A stretch of DNA of 64,000 bases from Heterotrichella gracilis. Lineage: Eukaryota > Sar > Xanthophyceae > Tribonematales > Xanthonemataceae. Where the stretch lies: assembly GCA_032358255.1 (NCBI GenBank), contig JAULBX010005776.1, positions 62,001 to 126,000 of the forward strand. Reading direction: 5' to 3'. This document shows positions 1-64,000 of the stretch, piece after piece (within the stretch, counting starts at the first letter, position 1; every line of letters begins with the position of its first letter). The notes below the pieces were generated by a model. The model was given only the letters and a program-made list of their open reading frames with translations. It was not told the origin of the DNA and did not search any database. Both the position numbers and the translations under genes were made by a program.

Positions 1-2888
1 TTGGAACACACAACCGCCAATCTGCCTATCATCTTCGCCACCTGACTGATAACTTACTTCCCCACCACCTACCCACGCACCCAAGCCCCAACTCACACCG
101 CCCCACCCCACCACCCCGCAGGCCCCCCCCACCTCCACCCTCTCCCTGTCAGACCTGGAAGCCTACTCCTTTGACGCCGCCAGCCAGTCACGCGTGGTGG
201 TGGTGGATGGGCTCATGGTCCCCCAGCTGTCAAGCCTAGACATGGTCCCTGATGGGGTGTATGTGGGCCCGCTGGCGGGGGCGCCGGCAGCAGCGGTGGA
301 GCAGCTGGTGGGTGTCCCTTCAACCCTACATTTTAAACCCTAAACCTCCTAAAGTTGAGGATTTTAAACGGTAGCAGCGGTGGAGCGGCTGGACGGTAGT
401 GCCCATGCATCTCACAGACCTTGACTATCTAAATCTCGAAATTTCTCTGAACCCTGATCCCTGAACGGCAGCCGCGGTGGAGGCAGCTGGTGGAGAGGTA
501 CAAGCGAACCCCTCAAAAGCCTGAACTCTGAGATACATATAGGTCTGAATTCTGAACGGCGGCAAGGGTGGGGCAGCGGGTGGGGTGGTGCCTGGGAGCT
601 TTCCAGCACATATCGTGCTGATCACATGGCATCAATCACGGTCCCATGCCCCCGCACACGCACATTCTGATCACATGCTGATCACATGGCACACATACGG
701 TGCATCCCACTGCTGTTCACATGGCACCAATCGCGCCCATCACATGCCACCTGCACCGTCCGCCCTGACGTCCCCCACACCCCATCCTCACAGGGCAGCC
801 TAGCGGCATCCCGCGGCGGCCCCTTTGCCACCATCAACGGGGCCACCGCCCTGGACGGCGTGTGCGTGTGGGTACCTCAGGGGACGACTGTGGATCAGCC
901 CATCCACGTGCTCTACCTGTCATCAGGTGCGGCTGGGTGGCAATACATGGATGGCAGCGGTGGTGCAGGCACCTCATGTGACATGTATTAGGGCTCTGAT
1001 CATTATTGACCTGCTGAGTTAGGCAACATGGTGACGGAACGTAACCATACTTGCTACTGGATATGAGCAGCCAGCGCCAAGCAGCTATATCCTGGCACAG
1101 CTTGTACCATATTATGACACCACAAAACCGCATTTGCCACCTGGCGTTGTGCAGGCGTGGAGGGCGGCTTGCCCACATCCTCCCCCCGCCTGCTGGTGGT
1201 GCTGGGCAAGGGGGCGGTGGCGCAGGTGGTGGAGGATTTCGGGCCCGCGGGGGCCCCGGGGGGGTATTTCTGCAACGCGGTTGCCGAGATGGTGGTGGGT
1301 GAGGAGGCTGTGCTCACCCACAGCTATGTGCAGCTGCAGGCCCCGGGGTCGTTCCACATGAAGTCCACGCTGGTGAACCAGGTGGGTTTGGGTTGGTGGT
1401 GATGGTGGTGGTGGTGGTGGTGGCGGCGGCGGTGGTACCACTGGTGGTGATGGTGGTAATCGGTGCCAACGCACAGCTCTGTGCAACTACATGCGCCCAG
1501 GGGCACCACATGATTTCAGCTTTGCAACGCCGTAACAAATTTCAACCTTGCGTGAAAGCCTGGAATACCTACTTGCCACAACCAATTGTGACAGCACTTA
1601 AACTCCCTCCCCCACGTAGGCCGCTTCCTCCACCTACTCCCTAACCGACGTGTCCCTGGGATCAAGCCTGTCCCGGCACGATCTGGATATCCGCCAGCTG
1701 GGGGCAGACACAGACACCAACATGCGCCACTTTTTGCTGGCGGGTCCCGGTCACCTCAACGACCTGCACTCCAAGTTGCGCCTGGACTACCCTGGGGGCA
1801 CAGCCAACCAGCTGCACAAGTAGGGTGGAAAACCCTGGCCAATCCCTAGCAAAACTTCCTCGAAACCCTAAACCTTCAAAACCCTATGGGGGGTGCCTGG
1901 ACCACCCTGGCGGCACAACCAACCAGCTGCACAAGTAGGATGAAAACCACTTGCCAAACCCTAAAAACCTGGACCCTGGACCCAGTGCCATGGAGCCCAT
2001 ACTGCAACACCTGGGTGCACTAAAAGCCATGGCGATACACCTGAGATTCTACTTCATTTTTGCCGGCCGCCCACCCCACCCCACCCCACCCCACCCACCC
2101 CGCCCCCAGGTGCATCGTGTCGCACGCCAGCGGGCGCGGCGTGTTTGACGGCAACGTCAAGGTGAACAAGCTGGCGCAGAAGACCGACGCGGGCCAGCTG
2201 TCTCGCAACCTGCTGCTGGTGCCCAAGGCCACTGTGAACGTGAAGCCCAACCTGCAGATCATCGCGGATGACGTCAAGTGCACGCACGGGTGCGCGGTGA
2301 GCGACCTGGAGGAGGAGGAGCTGTTCTACTTCAGGTGGGCAGGGTTTGGGGTGCAGCCCAGGGCGGGGGAATAGTGGTAAAATGGGTTGAAGTCCAATCA
2401 TCTGGTATTGTTGGGGTTTGAAGTTTCATAATCTGGATATCATAGGTGCCAAGTGTACTGACAGGTGTGCGATAAGTGACCTTGAGGAGGAGGAGCAGCT
2501 GTTTTATGTCAGGTGCCAGGGCTGCCCAAGGGTTTAGGGTTAAGGGCTTAGGGCTGGTGCTAGGCATGACGGGCACCCTGCTGACACTTCTGAGTTACTG
2601 AAACGCATGTAACACCCTTACTGACTGGTACCGTCACAGTAAGGCAATACAAGCTGAAAACCTGGACCCCCCAAACCCTATTTATCGGCACTGCGTTCTT
2701 ATCATCACATGTTCTCCTACAGGGCCCGTGGCATCGGCCTGGAGCAGGCTCGCGCCATGATGGTCTACTCCTTTGGGGCCGAGGTGGTACAGGGCCTCAA
2801 GTACCCCGAGCTGACTGGGCGCATGAACAAGGCGGTCAAGGCGGTGCTGGACACTGCCGACATCCTGCACATGGACGAGGTGCTGTAG
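1..2888 (+). CDS. SUFD: SufD-like Fe-S cluster scaffold subunit (5' end missing)
   Basis: Plastid SUF-system protein. SufD partners SufB and SufC in the SufBC2D scaffold that assembles Fe-S clusters. Exons read 122-307, 794-926, 1155-1381, 1620-1819, 2110-2334 and 2723-2888, giving 378 residues with agreeing phases. Usual SufD length suggests that roughly the first 50-100 residues, including any transit peptide, lie left of the window. The family signature is the C-terminal SufB/D beta-helix region, with ADDVKCTHG (about residues 303-311) followed by LEEEELFYFRARGIGLEQA. The middle holds the FATINGATALDG and VVEDFG stretches expected of SufD. SufD is preferred over SufB because the SufB-type N-terminal part is absent and the C-terminus is short. 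Introns 4 and 5 contain exon-edge copies. The TAG right after LHK at 1821 is inside an intron that begins at 1820. Its neighbour is a convergent ankyrin gene. Confidence 0.88.
1780..1947 (+). repeat. Exon-edge copy in SufD intron 4
   Basis: The end of the exon and its donor (1780-1835, coding LDYPGGTANQLHK) recurs at 1895-1947 with few changes, including the GTAGG donor. CCCTAAACC tracts lie between the two copies. Confidence 0.85.
2272..2514 (+). repeat. Exon-edge copy in SufD intron 5
   Basis: Exon end 2275-2340 (AAGTGCACGCACGGGTGCGC and the GAGGAGGAG run up to the donor) recurs at 2451-2514 as AAGTGTACTGACAGGTGTGC plus the same GAG run and a CAGGTGCCAGG donor. The copy has a 3-bp insertion in the GAG run and several substitutions. 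Confidence 0.85.
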
Positions 2889-63300: not shown

Positions 63301-64000
63301 CAAGGCCGAGGAGGCGGCTGCTGCGGTGGACGCGCTCAACGGCCTGGAGGTGAATGGCAAGGAGATGTACGCGGGCAGGGCGCAGAAGAAGAGTGAGCGC
63401 GAGGCCATGCTCAAGCAGAAGTGAGTGGTGGGGTTGGGGTGGGCGCGGATTGTGTGGGTGGGTGGGTGGGTGGGTGGGGGGTGCAGCATCTGGGTGGGTG
63501 GGGGGTGGGGATGAGGGTTTTGATGGACGCTGGCAGGTAGCAGATAAGGCAATGCTTGGGCCAAACTGGGTGAAGGTGGGGTGGGGTGGTGTTGGAGCCT
63601 GGCTTTTTGGGGATTATTTGGTGGGGATGGGTGGCTAGGGATGTCCTTAGGTTGAGGGTGAGAAGGGTGGTCATGGATGGGTGGGCTGGCGGTGGCTTGC
63701 AAGCGGCAATAAGGTGGCAGCGCAAGCAAATCTGAGGGTGGATTTCTGACAAGGTCCGCAACGAGCGCATTCAAAAGTACCAGCGCACGATTCCTGAACC
63801 CTAACATCCCTCTTTCCCAGGCTTGAGGAGGTTCGCAACGAGCGCATTCAGAAGTATTAGGGCATGGACCATAAACCCTAAGCCCCCCAACCCTAACCCT
63901 AACTCTTATATCCCCTTCTTCCCTTAGGTTTGAGGAGGTCCGCAACGAGCGCATCCAGAAGTACCAGGGCATGAACCTGTACGTGAAGAACCTGGTGGAC
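60311..64000 (+). CDS. PABP: Poly(A)-binding protein, multi-RRM (3' end missing)
   Basis: Cytoplasmic poly(A)-binding protein that stabilises mRNA and promotes translation. Exons in the window: 60311-60463, 60736-60838, 61067-61185, 61770-61931, 62433-62600, 63233-63420 and 63928 to the edge; 322 codons. Residues 1-27 are A/P-rich. RRM1 ([20 protein letters not shown], then SLGYAYVNF), RRM2 ([20 protein letters not shown], then KGYGFVHF), RRM3 ([20 protein letters not shown], then KGFGFVNF) and the start of RRM4 ([10 protein letters not shown]) are in the PABP order. The inter-RRM sequences [13 protein letters not shown] and [20 protein letters not shown] are also family signatures. The MLLE domain must lie to the right. 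Its introns contain many exon-edge copies. Confidence 0.96.
61660..61812 (+). repeat. Exon-edge copy before PABP exon 4
   Basis: GAACCTGGACAAGTCCATCG plus ACAACAAGGCCCTGCA (61769) has a copy at 61672-61707, GAACCTGGACAAGTCCAGTG plus ACAACAATGCCCTGCA. CCCTAACCCCTAACC-type sequence lies between them. Confidence 0.9.
62360..62455 (+). repeat. Exon-edge copy before PABP exon 5
   Basis: CCCCAGGTGAACAACAGCAC (62428) has a copy at 62362-62381, TCCCAGGTGAACATTAGCCC, with an intact acceptor. ACAAAACCCTAAACCC lies between. Confidence 0.82.
62564..62730 (+). repeat. Exon-edge copy after PABP exon 5
   Basis: GAGCTGCACAAGCTGTTCGG plus GGAGCACGGCCAGGTGCGCG and GGGGTTAGGGTTTT (62567-62621) recurs at 62665-62720 as GGGCTGCACAAGCTGTTTGG plus GGAGCTTGGCCATGTGGGCA and GGGGTTGGGATTTT. 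The donor became ATGTGG. Confidence 0.9.
63207..63224 (+). repeat. 18-C homopolymer at the acceptor of PABP intron 5
   Basis: A run of C residues forms the pyrimidine tract directly before TCCCGCAG. Confidence 0.9.
63745..63990 (+). repeat. Three copies of PABP exon 7 start
   Basis: The true exon begins at 63928 (TTTGAGGAGGTCCGCAACGA). Copies lie at 63821-63860 (with a TTTCCCAG acceptor, CTTGAGGAGGTTCGCAACGA, and an in-frame TAG after IQKY) and at 63750-63788 (GACAAGGTCCGCAACGAGCG). CCCTAA-rich sequence follows each. Confidence 0.93.

Follow-up and report, generated by a model that had tools for sequence, protein, structure and literature searches.

Copies of exon edges within introns of Heterotrichella gracilis, and telomere-type repeats between edge and copy

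In several introns of one stretch of DNA from Heterotrichella gracilis (Xanthophyceae), the adjoining exon is partly repeated, as decayed copies of its edge. The stretch (hereafter, the window) comprises 64,000 nucleotides of contig JAULBX010005776.1 (positions 62,001 to 126,000; assembly GCA_032358255.1), and a sequence-only reading of it had proposed at least ten genes with tandem copies always spanning the splice junction, belonging to no named class. The pattern was followed here in 284 kb, namely the window together with 22 further stretches (10 kb each) of the same genome (68.5 Mb, 903 contigs). The further stretches are labelled L0nn; 25 were fetched, and L002 and L003 were omitted from the outset (L003, with a GC content of 0.000, was taken as all N). 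Genes were predicted by a three-periodic hidden Markov model (HMM) gene finder, self-trained on the window and 23 stretches (294 kb); one of these, L024 (GC content 0.372, without predicted intron), took part in the training and in the scan for local BLAST pairs, and was removed later to give the 284 kb.

The exon-edge copies are real and extend beyond the window. In an edge test, 60 bp of each exon edge were aligned with the exon's own intron (Smith-Waterman, SW, score; 364 introns, 728 edges), and copies scoring at least 40 were found for the upstream edge in 38/364 introns and for the downstream edge in 27/364, whereas the same edges against other introns gave 0/2096 each; there are thus 65 pairs (38 donors, 27 acceptors). 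At a score of at least 30, 86 of the 728 edges are positive against 0.2 expected, in 75 of the 364 introns (20 of the 100 tested within the window). No edge reached 46 against the reverse complement of its own intron, and control exon segments taken 80-140 bp off the junction did so in 1/123 and 1/127 cases only. Copies are also visible by eye in SufD, DVR and PABP, and in self-BLAST of the window at E<=1e-3 all but one of the 28 repeat pairs are local (27 within 3 kb, among them one at offset 1393), the remaining one being distant. The earlier description of the copies as always spanning the junction is nearly right: the exon part of the copy ends no more than 4 bp from the junction in 55/65 pairs, but homology of the intron flank rises above control in only 32/65. 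The wide range of divergence proposed is likewise found, since identity of the exon parts runs from 0.75 to 1.0 (mean 88.5%). Besides, seven of the stretches (L006, L009, L011, L018-L020 and L023) show no local BLAST pair, and their telomere-motif density is mostly low.

A second component, overlooked by the sequence-only reading, is the filler of telomere type that often separates edge and copy. Contig C140 starts with (CCCTAAA)n, the telomere repeat of this genome, and 31 of the 65 spacers match it (SW score of at least 24), compared with 23% of equal stretches after the copy; in controls, a match is seen in 6% of cases next to donors and in 7% next to acceptors of introns without copies, in 2% in mid-intron and in 0.6% in intergenic DNA. 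The tract lies only in the spacer in 20 pairs, only after the copy in 4, and on both sides in 11. The density of exact telomere 7-mers, per kb, is 72 in spacers and 26 in what remains of these introns; it is 8.5 in copy-free introns, 1.7 in intergenic DNA, 0.7 in exons and 0.95 in shuffled introns. Tracts of at least 14 bp are intronic in 123/129 cases (6 intergenic); 50 of the 104 intronic tract clusters are no more than 40 bp from a splice site, and 39 of the 104 have direct repeats (score of at least 36) at their flanks, compared with 16/300 points chosen at random in tract-free parts of introns. An intron with a copy tends to have a tract as well (odds ratio 6, P=1e-8), and the copy rate tracks the tract rate across loci (Spearman 0.80). 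The clearest case is found in L014 at about 7784, where 54 bp of exon plus GTGAG are followed by about 75 bp of telomere-type repeat, matching telomere arrays, and then by the same unit again at 94% identity.

Genome-wide, exact 19-mer telomere matches number 781 + 778 = 1,559 (overlaps counted apart) and those of the reversed control 0; within a list of 100 of these places, several follow one another at intervals of about 100-112 or 189 bp. A fresh set was made of the first ten single 19-mer matches in that list (those with no close neighbour), with 1.5 kb around each: the tract lay in a predicted intron in 10/10, and an exon-edge copy scoring at least 40 was present in 4 of the 6 introns having both exons within the fetched stretch. 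With respect to the sense strand, tracts nearer the acceptor are C-rich in 41/54 cases, and those nearer the donor are C-rich in 40 and G-rich in 29; for spacer tracts the figures are 11 C and 1 G at acceptors, 8 C and 11 G at donors. The unit CCCTAA(C) includes a branch-point-like CTAAC.

The gene models of the window found support in four proteins matching the Pfam families SufBD, NAD-binding epimerase-type (DVR), PSMD3/Rpn3 and ribose-5-phosphate isomerase (RpiA), and in the PABP model, which once freed of the copies aligns without gaps to yeast Pab1 across the 3 junctions where copies sit. The gene finder also made one gene of two neighbours in the case of B3 and Twinkle and in that of SRP72 and VTT. 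For these four and for the PGRL1-like gene the names come from the earlier reading and, judged by the translations alone, seem right. The features are as follows ("local alignment" being one from the self-comparison of the window):

1780-1855, + strand: SufD, donor edge from which the copy at 1895-1968 derives, offset 115; the exon runs to 1819 and the rest is intron flank
1895-1968, + strand: SufD, decayed donor-edge copy; the preceding spacer contains AAACCCTAAACC
2450-2515, + strand: SufD, copy of exon end 2275-2334, exon-part identity 0.81
6266-6362, + strand: DVR, copy of donor edge 6151-6196 plus flank (local alignment)
6998-7050, + strand: DVR, copy of acceptor edge 7070-7123, 54 bp at 80%, edge-only score 27
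7414-7495, + strand: DVR, copy of exon end 7173-7248, offset 241
7944-7988, + strand: DVR, copy of donor edge 7848-7887 (local alignment)
8201-8245, + strand: DVR, copy of acceptor edge 8302-8346, edge-only score 36
10721-10886, - strand: PGRL1-like, two acceptor-edge copies (exon 10473-10664), at about 10722-10768 and at about 10836-10882, the latter with 96% identity to the exon edge
18972-19001, + strand: B3 gene, copy of exon segment 18825-18854, edge-only score 38
20101-20176, + strand: B3 gene, copy of donor edge 19988-20061 (local alignment)
21102-21178, + strand: B3 gene, copy of donor edge 21000-21076 (local alignment)
26481-26553, + strand: Twinkle-like, copy of donor edge 26367-26439 (local alignment)
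27019-27081, + strand: Twinkle-like, copy of donor edge 26920-26982, 90%
28074-28106, + strand: Twinkle-like, copy of exon segment 28003-28035 (local alignment)
28638-28776, + strand: Twinkle-like, copy of donor edge 28513-28640 (local alignment)
28806-28892, + strand: Twinkle-like, copy of acceptor edge 28941-29026 (local alignment)
37317-37442, - strand: VTT, donor-edge copies (exon 37483-37685; local alignment)
40172-40315, - strand: SRP72, two acceptor-edge copies (exon 39952-40097); spacers contain GAGTTTAGGGTT on the + strand
43948-44053, - strand: SRP72, copy of donor edge 44161-44264, with an in-frame TAG and a 2-bp insertion, by eye
47298-47325, + strand: RPI, possible copy of acceptor edge 47414-47441, borderline (SW 29)
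59176-59223, + strand: RPN3, possible copy of acceptor edge 59297-59344, borderline (SW 28)
61655-61706, + strand: PABP, copy of acceptor edge 61754-61804 (local alignment)
62663-62720, + strand: PABP, copy of donor edge 62564-62621; the spacer contains GGTTAGGGTTTTGGGTGTAGGGTTTAGGG
63752-63870, + strand: PABP, two acceptor-edge copies (63752-63790 and 63808-63870); the exon starts at 63928

SufD, DVR, PGRL1-like, B3, Twinkle, VTT, SRP72 and PABP are clear among the ten genes proposed, and RPI (29) and RPN3 (28) are borderline, as the top scores of these edges against 300 other introns are likewise 29 and 28. The SRP72 copies escaped the edge test because the gene finder had labelled parts of them as small exons.

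Once formed, the copies behave neutrally. They would frameshift or stop the protein in 62/65 cases if their splice site were used, and for this reason they are not new exons. The splice dinucleotide is kept in 32 of the 43 copies reaching the junction, near the ~78% expected from the mean exon-part identity, and selection on copy splice sites was accordingly rejected as an explanation. As most of these copies retain splice dinucleotides, they can mislead gene finders, as happened with SRP72. The suggestion that copies lengthen introns holds, with a median of 416 bp for introns with a copy and no tract, 374 bp for those with both, and 275 bp for those with neither.

The duplicated unit has two forms, according to the offset between edge and copy (38 of the 65 pairs below 140, 22 in 140-230, 5 above). 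Below 140, the exon part measures 47.7 +- 13 bp (median 47, interquartile range 39-52.5), the intron flank has a median of 24.5, and the usual non-homologous spacer is about 41 bp; at 140-230 the exon part is 71 bp, the median flank 6 and the usual spacer about 115 bp. Spacers of up to 14 bp are found in a minority of the 65 pairs (arrays, full units), and the young arrays of L010, L013 and L026, together with the L005 pair, are near-complete tandem repeats of edge plus flank. In a simulation of uniform placement, the exon part (exons of at least 160 bp) had a median of 67 (49-84) vs the 47 observed (Kolmogorov-Smirnov P=6e-8), and for exons of at least 130 bp it exceeded 70 bp in 2/24 cases vs 9.3 expected (P=0.0007). 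At offsets of 140-230, flank homology rises above control in 7/22 pairs and reaches an SW score of 40 in 2/22 vs 56% simulated; the flanks being mostly non-homologous, most such pairs are not simple tandem duplications, and of the two forms it is the shorter one that agrees with the decay of a full tandem unit. Within the exon-edge array of L010 (243-285) there is also a roughly 38-bp imperfect palindrome (CCAGGGGGACT...AGTCCCCCTGG), with similar stretches on about 20 other contigs, mostly on both strands, i.e., a tiny dispersed fold-back element.

Comparable duplications are rare elsewhere. The scan for local BLAST pairs (offset up to 600) gave 119 in total, 82 of them joining an exon or exon edge to an intron, 22 with other labels involving predicted exons, 9 intron-intron and 6 intergenic (4 of these in L024; the two other loci are at window 35193 and L022 9288). 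Off-diagonal self-alignment (offset 55-450, score of at least 46) was positive in 19/364 introns, 4 of which have no exon-edge score of at least 30 and a fifth one of 37; dinucleotide-shuffled introns, the type of control proposed by the sequence-only reading, gave 0. The same alignment of intergenic DNA gave 0/186 pieces of 336 bp each, a scan in which a few duplications may have been cut, since the pieces do not overlap. Other repeats were observed in passing: an intergenic 48-bp tandem array (AGCTGCGCAACCAA units) at window 35186-35325; an approximately 240-bp tandem repeat not derived from exon edges in a ~1.3-kb intron (L021:5670-6406; pairs about 73% alike); and a 72-bp repeat inside predicted exons (L014:1919-2217), possibly an in-frame protein repeat. 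L002 (C1, an 894 kb contig) and L024 (C111, 873 kb) are unlike the other contigs in the GC content of their stretches (0.357 and 0.372), and the L024 stretch, free of predicted introns, has a 1024-codon open frame and, at 4971-5475, a 96-bp tandem array.

Our best reading of these data, held tentatively, is that splice junctions repeatedly suffer staggered breaks, which would be repaired by fill-in and by joining with telomeric filler. A pair of nicks, or some equivalent break with staggered ends, would fall about 47 bp or more into the exon and slightly into the intron, and filling in of both overhangs would double the exon edge, splice site included. Telomere-type repeat (TTTAGGG)n, with telomerase as its putative source, would in about half of the cases be added to an end before joining, so that the copies would come to flank telomeric filler. 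The outer junction would stay in use and the gene would survive, while the second copy, now intronic, would decay neutrally and lengthen the intron; repeated events would give the arrays with about 100-bp spacing. As for the breaking of splice junctions, R-loops or splicing-coupled nicking are guesses. Tandem duplications reportedly arise from paired nicks in plants.

The separate elements of such a mechanism have published counterparts. Short telomeric tracts are inserted in mammalian chromosomes during break repair (see also PMC2246262), and in the horse a direct target duplication, ascribed to staggered breaks, was described at 3/66 loci, with deletion, addition and duplication at 2 further loci (PMC7215372). 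The tracts reported here resemble these interstitial telomeric sequences in both respects, being host telomere repeats inside chromosomes with flanking target duplication. Unlike the human ones, which are absent from exons and found in introns at a random rate (31%; PMC7215372), they are intronic nearly throughout; about half of their intronic clusters lie close to a splice site, and duplication at the flanks is frequent, with exon edges as the target. On the other hand, CST-guided Pol alpha-primase fill-in of complementary 3' overhangs gives small tandem duplications in which, as here, the stretch between two nicks is duplicated (PMC8355091). The same complex fills in telomere ends (PMC8355091), which would fit a telomeric filler; neither aiming at splice junctions nor telomeric filler is mentioned in the excerpt of PMC8355091. 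A potato gene carries one tandem duplication across an intron-exon boundary, similar in position but creating a new intron (PMC4974935), whereas we find 65 pairs in 284 kb, with the copy buried in an old intron. Direct repeats near splice sites are also described at intron borders, where they are short (4-30 bp), compare the two ends of the same intron and are read as target duplications of intron insertion (PMC11782384). In Chlamydomonas and Volvox, tandem repeats occur near intron-exon junctions and short motifs are frequent (PMC3887541); the excerpts of the Coccomyxa (PMC3446292) and Asterochloris (PMC6652019) genome papers mention no such pattern. No description of the whole pattern was found in searches of an open-licence library; the class is not wholly unnamed, a boundary duplication and telomeric insertion with target duplication having both been published. 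The novelty lies in the telomere repeat as a frequent spacer between exon edge and copy. The mechanism would account for the duplicate, the filler and both orientations; the combination of telomeric insertion with CST fill-in is one that we infer.

Several observations weigh against it. No telomere match exists on either side in 30/65 pairs; in the fresh set, flanking direct repeats scoring at least 40 were found at only 2/10 tracts; and 9 of the 22 further stretches have no exon-edge copy of at least 40, so that activity is patchy. The motif is also raised beside splice sites of introns without detectable copies, which a functional motif would fit equally well. Among pairs with offsets below 140, the flank scores at least 40 in 11/38 vs 34% simulated, as expected of plain tandem duplication, and the filler need not be new there. 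The gene models are self-trained on DNA alone. No paralogue or allele with an empty site was found for L005, and candidate matches of this kind for L014 and L010 proved to be mostly telomere tracts and a short palindrome.

The chief rival, which we consider unlikely though worth keeping in view, reverses the order: telomere-like tracts near splice sites would come first, as splicing or chromatin motifs or because they are tolerated, and their fragile G-rich DNA would provoke tandem duplication, no filler being inserted. Even in copy-free introns, tracts are most frequent at 0-40 bp from donors and at 20-60 bp from acceptors, the arrays of L013 and L026 repeat edge and tract as one unit, and both the decay of the shorter offsets and the 11 pairs with tracts on both sides agree with it. 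Against it stand the excess of spacer-only over after-only tracts and the pairs at offsets of 140-230, whose exon identity goes up to 1.0 and whose flanks nonetheless so seldom match; as to fragility, none of the 6 intergenic tracts has flanking repeats, a number too small for a test.

Polymerase-theta-type end joining makes templated insertions, and an intron break could be patched in this way with a short copy of a nearby exon edge. Many pairs at offsets of 140-230 look like patches, with the exon part reaching up to the junction and unrelated flanks; the telomeric spacers, the repeated arrays of about 100 bp and a template that mostly ends at the splice junction are left unexplained, and as a general account it is improbable.

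Uniform tandem duplication followed by survivorship was rejected and has, in our judgement, a slight chance at best. Insertions in exons would be harmful and purged, and exon-copy pairs, diverging about half as fast as intron-intron pairs should, would be recognisable for longer. With this bias built in (exons kept frozen, all other DNA free to mutate), a simulation of uniform placement, scaled to the 54 junction introns scoring at least 46, predicts, according to the age range, 51-66 cases confined to introns and 44-55 in intergenic DNA. Observed were 4 (5 if the intron with a score of 37 is taken to lack an edge copy) and 0, and BLAST adds only the two intergenic loci outside the excluded L024.

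Very improbable is the birth of introns through duplication of an AGGT-containing exon segment (Rogers model) or through introner-type insertion. Donor and acceptor junctions are homologous (score of at least 40) in 11/364 introns vs 2/1820 permuted, but several of the 11 are introns below 100 bp with overlapping test segments and others are copies called as exons; 0/65 copies come within 10 bp of the far splice site, and Rogers-type gain was rejected since they stop short of it. Introners form families of almost identical introns, scattered through a genome and bordered by short target duplications; as with them, repeated insertions add intron content here, and unlike theirs the copies are local. 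With one distant repeat pair in the window and both of the non-telomeric fillers searched being single-copy, a dispersed element was likewise discarded, in agreement with the sequence-only reading. A copy derived from spliced RNA was also rejected, an exon-exon junction appearing in 1 ambiguous case among 364 introns, explicable by a similar intron flank.

Assembly error, to which local repeats are prone, is hardly credible, since the copies differ from their source (exon parts mostly 75-97% identical), carry stops and frameshifts, and score at least 40 in the window and 13/22 further stretches.

The finding bears on two open questions: the way in which introns gain length, and the position of spontaneous breaks with respect to splicing. 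A bolder form of the staggered-break reading, which we put forward as a conjecture, would make it an engine of intron growth peculiar to this lineage: splicing, R-loops or exon-edge chromatin would direct breaks to splice junctions, and telomerase and fill-in would heal them. If this were true, introns would accumulate telomeric repeats and exon-edge copies that the remainder of the nuclear genome would almost wholly lack; by extrapolation from the 65 pairs found in 284 kb, the genome would hold thousands of telomere-tagged scars of break repair at exon edges, and a link between splicing, breakage and telomerase would become countable, and testable in culture.

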